Assembly (NCBI RefSeq): GCF_001643375.1
Contig: NZ_LSHB01000013.1
Location: forward strand, 1 to 64,000
DNA: 64,000 nt
DNA from: Chryseobacterium sp. FP211-J200
GTDB lineage: Bacteria > Bacteroidota > Bacteroidia > Flavobacteriales > Weeksellaceae
Direction: 5' to 3'
This document shows positions 61,169 through 64,000 of this stretch, piece after piece (the stretch's first letter is position 1; each line of letters starts with the position of its first letter). The notes under the pieces were generated by a model. It was not told the DNA's origin, made no database searches, and saw only the letters and a program-made list of their open reading frames with translations. Both the position numbers and the translations under genes were made by a program.

Positions 61169-61188
61169 TTTTACGGATATCCGTAAAA
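61169..61188. promoter_or_regulatory. Perfect 20-bp palindrome upstream of HTH gene
   Basis: TTTTACGGATATCCGTAAAA is an exact palindrome in otherwise AT-rich sequence. TAGGTTTG, a TAnnTTTG -7 match, lies 20 bases downstream (61,208-61,215), so the palindrome spans the -40 to -20 region. It could be an operator for the HTH protein encoded next. No clear TTG at -33. Confidence 0.55.
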
Positions 61189-61292
61189 AAATATGATTCT
61201 ACAAATGTAGGTTTGCAAATAAATAACAAAGCACTGAAATATTATTGCAGTACAAAGTTTTAAAATTGCTTTTTATATGGCATTTTTCTGTT

Positions 61293-61529
61293 ATGGACAT
61301 TAGAATCATCATAAGAATACACAATTTGGTCAACATCCAGCAAACTGGAAGTCCAAAAGGTCTTGCCGAAAATCTAAAGATGTCTGAAAGAATGGTTTAT
61401 CATTATCTGAACTACATGAAATCTGAAATGAATGCACCAATAAAATACAACTTTAAAAAACAAAGCTATTGCTATACGGACGATGCGGGGTTTTGTTTTA
61501 TAATAAAAAAAATTAATAACAATAAATAA
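61293..61529 (+). CDS. Small helix-turn-helix protein
   Basis: Start MDIRIIIRIHNL at 61,293 gives 78 residues; an upstream ATG at 61,245 adds 16 residues unlike the family. Residues about 18-50 form a winged-HTH pattern (TGSPKGLAENLKMSERMVYHYLNYMKS), followed by a short beta wing (APIKYNFKKQSYCYTDDAGF). This resembles the DeoR/HTH_11-type DNA-binding domain alone. It is the first gene of a tight plus-strand operon, 5 bases from the next, and a palindrome and -7 element lie upstream. Autoregulation of the operon is likely by inference. Confidence 0.7.
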   Translation: MDIRIIIRIHNLVNIQQTGSPKGLAENLKMSERMVYHYLNYMKSEMNAPIKYNFKKQSYCYTDDAGFCFIIKKINNNK

Positions 61530-61534
61530 TTAAC

Positions 61535-62566
61535 ATGAATAAAAATTCTTCTTTAGGAGCATCGGATCTTTTTCTGTGTGTGCTCGCTATTTTATTAATC
61601 AGCGTAAGTTTTTATCAAACTTGGCTTGGTCTCGATCAGATTTTTGGCAATGCATCGTTTGTGATCGCTTTGGTGCTATCATTACTCCTGCTTTTTCTTT
61701 GTTGGATGATGCGTCAAGCTAAACTAGAAGGAAAGCCTACAGGAAGTTTGATAGGAATTTACATTTTTATTGCATCCTTTTGTTTTATTGCAAACTTTAA
61801 TGCTTTGTATACGAGGTTTATGCGAACTGATATCTATACTAATGAATTGAGAGAAATCAATGATAAATATAATTTCCTAGAAACAGATGTCAAGAAAAAA
61901 CTGAATTATTCTGTTGCAGACGAAAAGACCAGACAAGCAATAGTTTCTAAAACAGAACAATTGATGAAACAAATAACAGATAAAGGCAATCCAGGATTTG
62001 GTACAAAGGCGATTCAGTTAACAGATGAAATACAAAAGCTTCTTGGACAAAAGCTAACCCTACTGACTGTTTCTAATGGTAATTATGATGATCTCGCTGA
62101 CAGAATGGGAAATCAAATTATTGATATGATGGATCAGCTCTCTCCCGCAGAAAAATCATTAAAAGTTGATACGGAAAATGCAAAATTACATTGGAATAAA
62201 CAGATTGAGAAACTTCTTTTGATGCCTAAAAATGATATTAATGATATTGCACAAGGAGAAATTGATAAATCCTTACAACAATATAACGATTTGGTAAACA
62301 GATCAAAATCTGTTTTGGGAGATGAAAAAATAAAAATTGAACCAACAGTTTCTAAAACACAAAATGTAGGAAAAATAGGCTATGCTTTTGAACACGCAAT
62401 TAAAAACTTCGGAATGTATCAATTTGTTGTTTTGGCAGGATGTATCTTGCTTGATTTTGTAATTGTGATAATTATATTGTTGGTAACAAGTCCTGATAAT
62501 AATAGCAATGGTAGTGTATTAGGCGGAACTAGAAAAAAAGGCAGAACATTAATCCCAAATAAATAG
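61535..62566 (+). CDS. Four-TM protein with long soluble middle domain
   Basis: An unrecognised 343-residue membrane protein. TM1 is about 11-32 (LFLCVLAILLISVSFYQTWLG), TM2 about 40-58, TM3 about 70-90 (IGIYIFIASFCFIANFNALY), then a helical, Lys/Asp-rich domain of about 200 residues (NDKYNFLETDVKKKLNYS; EIDKSLQQYNDLVNRSKS), and TM4 about 295-318 (FVVLAGCILLDFVIVIIILLV). A short basic tail follows (GGTRKKGRTLIPNK). It begins 5 bases after the HTH gene and ends 2 bases before the GTPase gene, so the three are surely coexpressed. Confidence 0.7.
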   Translation: MNKNSSLGASDLFLCVLAILLISVSFYQTWLGLDQIFGNASFVIALVLSLLLLFLCWMMRQAKLEGKPTGSLIGIYIFIASFCFIANFNALYTRFMRTDIYTNELREINDKYNFLETDVKKKLNYSVADEKTRQAIVSKTEQLMKQITDKGNPGFGTKAIQLTDEIQKLLGQKLTLLTVSNGNYDDLADRMGNQIIDMMDQLSPAEKSLKVDTENAKLHWNKQIEKLLLMPKNDINDIAQGEIDKSLQQYNDLVNRSKSVLGDEKIKIEPTVSKTQNVGKIGYAFEHAIKNFGMYQFVVLAGCILLDFVIVIIILLVTSPDNNSNGSVLGGTRKKGRTLIPNK

Positions 62567-62568
62567 AA

Positions 62569-63543
62569 ATGATGAACAATGATAAACCTTTCTCATTTGA
62601 TGATTATAACAATGAGGATAATTTTCATAAAATCGATGATTTTCAAGAAATAAATCATCAACCTCTGGGAAATTCTACAATCTATACAACACAAGAAACA
62701 GAAGATGAAGGTTTTGTTCCTACATCTAACGGAAGTACAACAACAGTTCAAAATAAAGACAGCAACTTTGTATTTTTCTACGGGACATCAGCATCTGGGA
62801 AATCTGTTATTCTATCAGCTATTTTGTATTATATGAATTCCTATGCAGGAGTTTTAAGACCCAAGTTAGGAAGTCCAAATTCTAGAGAAGCTCATGTTTT
62901 ACTTGCAGATTTTTTTGAAAATATAAAGCGTGGAATATTACCTAACAGAAGTACAAGAGACCAAGTTACACGTTTAGATTTTGTATTTGACCCTAATAAT
63001 AAATCTAAAAAAGTTCTACCTGTTAGTTTATCGTTTCTAGAAACAAATGGAGAAAATCATAATGAAATATCCAGAGGGGGCAAATATCATGAAAGCATAG
63101 ACGCGTATTTAAATTCAGACATACCACTTAATTTTATAATTGTTACTAGCTATGATAGAGCTCATCAAGAAGATGCAAAAATTGTAGAGTTTTTAGATTA
63201 TTTAGAAAGAAAAGGAAAAAATCTAAAAAATGTAAATGTACTTCTTGTTATTTCAAAATGGGATAAATCAGGAAGTATGGGTGTTGATAACGAGCAACAT
63301 TTAGAAAATTTTATTAGTGAAAGATTAAGCATGACTAATAATAGAATTGACACCTATAATTTAAACAAAACTTATTTCACAATAGGTAATGTACAAAATC
63401 AAGGAGGAGTAGAAAAAATAACTTTGCTCAACTTGGAATCAGCTGAAGTAATTTCAAAATGGTTATATAACAATATCGTTGGTTACGATCTAGATTATGA
63501 AGGAACTTTTTGGGAAAAAATTAAATTTAGCTTTTCTAAATAA
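62569..63543 (+). CDS. P-loop GTPase-like protein
   Basis: A 324-residue cytoplasmic protein. A 65-residue acidic N-terminal tail precedes a P-loop NTPase domain. Walker A is GTSASGKS (72-79). A G3-like segment reads SFLETNGEN (about 155-163), with Glu instead of the usual Asp of DxxG. The G4-like motif SKWD (229-232) is of the [NTS]KxD type, supporting a GTPase of the TRAFAC/dynamin-like classes. YDRAHQEDAKIVEFLDYLERK precedes G4. Strong AT bias marks it off from core genes. It overlaps the next gene by one base (TAATG), and follows the membrane protein by two. Substrate specificity for GTP is inferred. Confidence 0.75.
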   Translation: MMNNDKPFSFDDYNNEDNFHKIDDFQEINHQPLGNSTIYTTQETEDEGFVPTSNGSTTTVQNKDSNFVFFYGTSASGKSVILSAILYYMNSYAGVLRPKLGSPNSREAHVLLADFFENIKRGILPNRSTRDQVTRLDFVFDPNNKSKKVLPVSLSFLETNGENHNEISRGGKYHESIDAYLNSDIPLNFIIVTSYDRAHQEDAKIVEFLDYLERKGKNLKNVNVLLVISKWDKSGSMGVDNEQHLENFISERLSMTNNRIDTYNLNKTYFTIGNVQNQGGVEKITLLNLESAEVISKWLYNNIVGYDLDYEGTFWEKIKFSFSK

Positions 63544-64000
63544 TGAAGAACATTAATGTATTTGGATATGCAACCTTTGGAACTCCAAATGGCTTTACCC
63601 AATCTTGTATTTATGGAAATAAGAGTTTAGAGAAACTTTTAAAAACATTTGATTTAAAAACAAATGCAATACAATTGTTATCAGCAAATGACTACATATT
63701 TTCAATTAGAAAAGAATCTACTCAAAATAATACCTTTTTATCTTATTCTGTTTACACATACGCAAAAGAGAAGAATTCTAATAGAAGTGGAACTTTTGTA
63801 GGAACAAGTTTAGTTTTTGTTGATGAAACTATAGCTGAAAATTTAATTTTCACTTCACTTTCTTCGATTCATAGCCAACTAAAAAAGAATAATATTGGTA
63901 TCAATAATACGTTAAATATTAATCATTCAAAGGATTTTAATATTCAAAATGTCTTTTCTAAAGATTTTGAAAAATTAGAATATCAAACTACTAGATTTAA
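63543..64000 (+). CDS. Fourth operon protein, truncated by window end
   Basis: The frame opens at ATG 63,543, which overlaps the GTPase stop (TAATG), and stays open for 152 codons to the window end. The translation starts KNINVFGYATFGTPNGFTQS and continues with LLSANDYIFSIRKE, LSYSVYTYAKEKNSNRSGTFVGTSLVF, and ENLIFTSLSSIHSQLKK. I do not recognise a catalytic motif. The position, coupled to a GTPase and ending beyond the window, is like the large partner (GAP1-type) genes of GTPase-centred predicted conflict systems, which begin with a conserved domain with Tyr/Gly and Gly-Thr motifs. That link is inference only. Confidence 0.65.
   Translation, partial: MKNINVFGYATFGTPNGFTQSCIYGNKSLEKLLKTFDLKTNAIQLLSANDYIFSIRKESTQNNTFLSYSVYTYAKEKNSNRSGTFVGTSLVFVDETIAENLIFTSLSSIHSQLKKNNIGINNTLNINHSKDFNIQNVFSKDFEKLEYQTTRF

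Follow-up and report, generated by a model that had tools for sequence, protein, structure and literature searches.

A patchily distributed Bacteroidota gene set built around a divergent DO-GTPase relative, a putative membrane-associated conflict system

Introduction

What is the AT-rich operon that crosses the right edge of a 64,000-base stretch of DNA from Chryseobacterium sp. FP211-J200 (the window: bases 1–64,000 of the 80,040-base contig NZ_LSHB01000013.1, whose numbering we keep past 64,000)? The original prediction, drawn from the window alone, described a helix-turn-helix (HTH) protein, a protein with four transmembrane (TM) segments, a P-loop GTPase and a coupled partner, and likened their layout to the GTPase-centred conflict systems of Bacteroidota. 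Here we report that the operon contains a conserved core of three genes, encoding the four-TM protein (TMP), the GTPase and its partner (PAR), with variable, partly exported enzymes behind them. With moderate confidence we read this gene set as a mobile, Bacteroidota-centred GTPase switch at the inner membrane that probably serves as an envelope-guarding conflict system. None of the open-licence papers that our searches brought up, supplementary files aside, describes it.

Results

A conserved three-gene core

The four packed genes of the window lie on the forward strand as predicted, with 5 bases, 2 bases and a 1-base overlap between HTH, TMP, GTPase and PAR genes. Their strong AT-richness was borne out: the operon has a G+C content of 29.0% against 38.1% in window positions 1–61168, and 62001–64000 is the lowest of the 32 G+C bins in the window. 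The operon is indeed open at the window edge, PAR ending at 65,096 and being followed by four more genes; the first gene after the last of these, which ends at 67,115, lies on the opposite strand (Table 1). The effector suspected past 64,000 finds candidates there in effector-like genes, including that of a retropepsin-like lipoprotein (PRO).

Spacing was counted in 62 of 76 locus maps, ten having been dropped as duplicate, truncated, frameshifted or broken (L009–L011, L072, L074, L076, L078–L080 and L082) and four lacking a label on at least one core gene (L044, L046, L060 and L084). The order TMP, GTPase, PAR was kept in all 62; the TMP–GTPase gap fell between −10 and 50 bases in 57 and the GTPase–PAR gap in 60.

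Hydropathy confirmed the four TM segments of TMP, whose profile was matched in 75 of 78 loci, and placed a helical domain of about 200 residues between TM3 and TM4. Three basic residues stand in the TM2–TM3 loop and five in the C-terminal tail, so by the positive-inside rule this domain is predicted to lie outside the cytoplasm. The predicted structure of TMP is all-helical (predicted local distance difference test, pLDDT, 80.9), and structural comparison returned generic helical matches only, none of them informative.

The GTPase is related to DO-GTPases

The P loop GTSASGKS (K78), the ETNGE motif with its Walker-B E158 and the SKWD motif (residues 229–232) are all present as first described. 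Among 67 family members G72, G77, K78, G161, W231 and D232 are invariant, K230 is kept in 65 and E158 in 66. The original prediction took ETNGE for a weakened G3, a point that did not stand. DO-GTPases are defined as TRAFAC GTPases whose Walker B holds a conserved glutamate (PMC7159879), and the window protein shows this TRAFAC-clade feature; because this glutamate is the family hallmark and E158 is almost universally kept, it does not represent a loss.

Profile searches pointed the same way. PF19975 was matched by 64 of the 67 members at E values up to 0.1 (best 1.4e-8). The window GTPase itself scored 18.1 bits, under the curated cut-off of 27, while distant relatives in three genomes (G301, G312 and G169), which a five-sequence GTPase profile reached at E values of 8.6e-98, 3.8e-16 and 7.6e-33, respectively, exceeded it. 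In hhalign the family aligned at E 4.9e-8 with the DO-GTPase of a DO-GTPase/GAP1-N1 locus (L178), itself a PF19975 match at 1.8e-62. We therefore call the protein a divergent DO-GTPase relative and do not file it as a family member. Against the PDB by sequence it matched P-loop stretches only (best E 0.16). At its N-terminus are acidic units resembling KPLSFDD, whose number varies between species from one to several (window 62569–62700; L179:5211–6335); the basic tail at the C-terminus of TMP might be their binding partner.

The partner protein PAR

PAR consists of a putative longin-like domain, a coiled coil, a TM segment and a C-terminal domain. Residues 1–117 appear to follow, in their modelled order of strands and helices, the strand/helix order of longin domains. 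In this respect, and in its best structural ranks, the region may resemble the longin GTPase-activating proteins (GAPs) of Rag/ARF GTPases, namely FLCN–FNIP2, GATOR1 NPRL2 and C9orf72–SMCR8. R81, invariant in 65 of 65 members, falls in the loop between modelled strands 63–73 and 85–93; we infer that it may be the equivalent of the published arginine fingers of longin GAPs and regard it as a candidate finger. A sequence search of the PDB gave coiled-coil chains as matches to PAR, the best of them (E 5.4e-5) lying over its coiled coil.

A GAP1-N identity for PAR found no support by sequence. The Pfam scan of the window protein found no GAP1-N; for the 65 members, the 25 Pfam families listed out of 158 included neither GAP1-N1 nor GAP1-N2, these scans being the only route by which GAP1-N2 was tested. 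Comparison by hhalign with 12 GAP1-N1 proteins was no more favourable (E 0.06–0.74); local alignments set R81-x-G against the R-P-G that is invariant in GAP1-N1, at E 0.06–0.5, but this is no evidence. Pfam scans of the proteins encoded in the operon, with matches accepted up to an E value of 1, gave neither GASH nor FNIII. TagF_N was likewise absent among those 25 of 158 families, and a TagF_N sequence search of ten plasmid records gave no match, the controls also remaining without one. PAR differs from TagF, the type VI secretion repressor, in its added coiled coil and TM segment, and no operon protein hit a type VI family.

A bolder proposal, which we think improbable, would see here a bacterial counterpart of the Rag–FLCN/NPRL2 switch of eukaryotes. 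PAR would be a longin GAP anchored in the membrane, with Arg81 for a finger, and would drive a membrane GTPase in control of periplasmic proteases and nucleases that are marked by CxHP[E/D] as a lipoprotein tag of their own; GAP1-N, TagF and PAR would then form one bacterial longin superfamily.

Tagged enzymes behind the core

PRO matched PF13975 (2.7e-15; 57.2 bits against a cut-off of 28.2) with an intact DTG motif, and reached 46 bits for TIGR02281, below its 57.95. The motif is present in all 16 retropepsin rows listed, as expected of the retropepsin-like clan AA. Of the 62 counted loci, 13 have a PRO whose start lies between −89 and 12 bases from the end of PAR, and L044 has one too; an aspartic protease 11 kb off in L040 was left out of the cargo counts. 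A staphylococcal-nuclease-like protein stands 57 to 1808 bases behind PAR in 12 loci.

These two unrelated enzymes have a short motif in common. Directly after the lipobox cysteine, C-x-H-P-[E/D] occurs in 14 of the 16 listed retropepsins and in 3 of the 12 nucleases, and most of the untagged nucleases start with a plain signal-peptide-like stretch. The pattern was set after the sequences had been seen and was searched as CxHP[EDG], every hit having E or D. Those 17 proteins were all the hits among 948 open reading frames (ORFs) of at least 100 aa in 73 maps, and 565 other ORFs held none once a second copy of the window PRO had been removed. Among the ORFs examined, the tag is confined to enzymes of the TMP–GTPase–PAR operon.

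The tag could mean that TMP, GTPase and PAR form an accessory secretion or sorting device for CxHP[E/D] lipoproteins, the enzymes being nutrient-scavenging or remodelling cargo and not weapons. We consider this unlikely. It would suit the presence of the tag on both enzymes, and its place at +2 to +6 after the lipid cysteine, where, according to PMC5080379, Bacteroidota lipoprotein export signals are also short motifs directly after that cysteine; that signal, however, is C-x-K-(D/E)2 and minimally needs two acidic residues, and CxHP[E/D] has one. Moreover, the gene set is patchy, and a tagged enzyme was found in only 15 of the 73 maps, 14 with a tagged protease and one with a tagged nuclease alone.

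It is less probable still that the tagged enzymes are unrelated passengers, one signal peptide having been captured by recombination, behind a selfish or cryptic core. The tagged nucleases of L050 and L067 adjoin tagged proteases, which would make a 5'-end exchange easy, but the tagged nuclease of L074 has no protease listed beside it, and an untagged retropepsin recurs even in L180, after a core that is only very distantly related.

PRO also went with the form of PAR. In a table of the 62 spacing-count loci plus L044, it accompanied 14 of 32 long PARs and none of 31 short ones (Fisher p 2e-5); when relatedness was taken into account, independent pairs agreed or tied, too few of them differing (median p 0.25, and 1 with the traits reversed). 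In two further loci, both frameshifted and not part of this table, a short PAR is followed by a nuclease gene.

Distribution and mobility

A scan of genome contigs gave 64 named loci, of which 32 are labelled Chryseobacterium and five Flavobacterium. The others include Pedobacter, Dyadobacter, Emticicia, Niabella, Arachidicoccus and Rhodonellum, together with one Chlorobiaceae and one alphaproteobacterial metagenome-assembled genome (MAG). This last locus (L076) holds core genes, among them a GTPase ORF that is short where the contig ends, and the contig may have been mis-binned. The set is sparse: five among 98 relatives have it, as do 10 among 395 genomes of the phylum (own genome included in both). 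This led us to reject a housekeeping operon in core synteny, the outcome against which the original prediction had asked to be checked. A gliding or secretion system was rejected as well, no such family scoring over its cut-off for the core proteins. Phage, plasmid and viral collections held no copies of the gene set.

In the gene tree the window copy groups with Chryseobacterium formosus and kin (100/100), an Epilithonimonas hominis copy with C. piscicola (97/82) and a Pedobacter copy with that of an uncultured Chryseobacterium MAG (98/88). Between G012, a genome of the same genus, and our own, the neighbouring branching enzyme is 87% identical and the GTPase 57%. These joins across families and this contrast in identity speak for movement of the gene set between lineages, though caution is due because some of the labels belong to MAGs.

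The site itself is variable. At the glycogen branching gene, five of the six genomes fetched, out of 22 other same-genus genomes searched, carry different genes (L116, L117, L119, L120 and L121). In L117 (3206–13407) these form a sedentary chromosomal integron, with single genes between nine attC-like repeats and an integron-integrase-like recombinase (TIGR02249 at 7.2e-54, under its cut-off); L116 (4230–12000) has seven to eight repeats of this kind, and none of the ORFs in the stretch that we fetched is listed as an integrase. At the same site in L118 (2758–10541), an HTH gene (product 71% identical) and a DUF6804/LP210 tail (70–75% identical) frame another core, consisting of a CFI-box protein, a signal-peptide-bearing coiled-coil-like protein, an HSP70 (1.2e-66) and a kinase–AAA fusion. 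We infer that the GTPase core and the HSP70/kinase core were swapped within a shared frame.

A doubtful alternative, in our view, is a signalling module for envelope stress that protects the membrane and fights nobody, comparable to DO-GTPase genes found next to psp operons. The literature reports one DO-GTPase family protein together with psp genes and predicts for it a role in membrane stress, and TMP and PAR both have TM segments. This reading fits poorly with a second core occupying the shared frame at a variable site, and with the proteases or nucleases tightly linked to the core in some loci.

By eye, DUF6804 genes also stand behind HSP70-like genes in other genera (L153, L154 and L155); L154 and L155 have a kinase-like gene, and in L155 a type I methylase-like gene comes after these genes. 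Among 106 core-adjacent proteins there were few PADLOC matches in the 25 of 58 families shown (SoFic 2, type I restriction endonuclease 1, DpdF 1), which we did not use as evidence because the comparison had no control.

Leader and flanking genes

Both predicted leader elements, the palindrome and the −7 element, are present upstream of the operon. The palindrome TTTTACGGATATCCGTAAAA is the sole perfect one of at least 18 bp in the window; shuffled sequences (n = 20) held a mean of 0.15 of at least 20 bp. Its core reads ACGG-ATAT-CCGT here, ACGG-AAAA-CCGT in L118 and, with one arm altered, GCGG-TATC-CCGT in C. piscicola (L056). As the half-sites are kept in one of the two relatives, the palindrome is likely an operator. 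The box TAGGTTTG was read against TAnnTTTG, the Bacteroidota −7 consensus, and the leader with this box and the inverted repeat ACTGAAATATTATTGCAGT is near-identical in the three loci. The HTH protein, 82% identical in C. piscicola and 71% in L118, matched the PADLOC WYL model over residues 21–65 (E 1e-4) and is likely the regulator of the operon. Three additional small genes lie between the HTH and TMP genes of C. piscicola (L056:6725–7915).

A 73% identical copy of the 135-aa membrane protein stands behind PRO in L010/L062, which are the same single contig. The right end of our own contig, read by eye (L002:18830–19999 and L003), holds relaxase-like and mobilisation-like genes.

Table 1 Features of the operon and its leader (contig numbering)
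Feature	Positions	Strand	Description
Perfect palindrome TTTTACGGATATCCGTAAAA	61169..61188	.	20 bp; half-sites ACGG-N4-CCGT
−7-like box TAGGTTTG	61208..61215	+	Bacteroidota type; TA and GTTTG kept in own locus, L118 and L056
Imperfect inverted repeat ACTGAAATATTATTGCAGT	61233..61251	.	leader; 19 bases, identical in own locus, L118 and L056
HTH gene	61293..61529	+	small HTH protein, 78 aa counted from ATG
TMP gene	61535..62566	+	four-TM protein
GTPase gene	62569..63543	+	divergent DO-GTPase relative
PAR gene	63543..65,096 (window holds 63543..64000)	+	517 aa
PRO gene	65,093–65,668		retropepsin-like lipoprotein, tag CKHPE
135-aa membrane protein gene	65,691–66,098
DUF6804 protein gene	66,188–66,490		PF20619, E 3.6e-35
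LP210 gene	66,483–67,115		lipoprotein, 210 aa

Discussion

The likeness to GTPase-centred conflict systems stood in part. With the DO-GTPase/GAP1 systems (Kaur, Burroughs, Iyer, Aravind, eLife 2020; PMC7159879) the operon has in common a TRAFAC-type GTPase with a Walker-B glutamate, a dedicated partner gene directly downstream, so that PAR occupies the GAP1 position, TM-bearing components, and mobile neighbourhoods with variable effector-like genes; the HSP70, DnaJ and kinase companions published for GAP1-N2 systems also have their parallel here. Unlike those systems, it has a single GTPase, no zinc ribbon hit, a partner in which no GAP1-N was detected, no GASH or FNIII hit, a four-TM protein of its own, and companions of the retropepsin and nuclease kinds, though a trypsin-fused protein does occur in published systems of planctomycetes. 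The conflict role remains putative.

We favour a membrane GTPase switch because the core is kept in order and tight spacing, its GTPase is kin to DO-GTPases and retains the GTP-binding residues, the retropepsin cargo is exported and was counted only with long PARs, one tag is common to two unrelated enzymes, the set is patchy and joined across families in the tree, and in a sibling the same regulator and tail enclose an HSP70/kinase–AAA core. In such a switch, the extracytoplasmic domain of TMP would sense an event at the envelope, such as an attack on the cell wall or the entry of phage DNA, and alter the GTPase. The longin-like domain of PAR may bind the GTPase and serve as its GAP or its effector, Arg81 being the candidate finger, and PAR would relay the signal through its single TM segment to the extracytoplasmic C-terminal domain, where present, which could free or activate the protease or nuclease that bears the lipoprotein tag. 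Autoregulation of the operon would fall to the HTH protein. The most likely purpose is, putatively, defence or another conflict between entities.

If this is true, the gene set would represent a third, Bacteroidota-type branch of GTPase-centred conflict systems; we know of no earlier one whose exported cargo of proteases and nucleases bears a tag. It offers testable targets in one candidate arginine finger, one tag and one switch glutamate, and the regulator and tail common to two cores, GTPase or HSP70/kinase, are a natural handle for finding sister systems. Should the longin reading also hold, bacterial conflict GTPases would be tied to the eukaryotic regulators of Rag/ARF GTPases.
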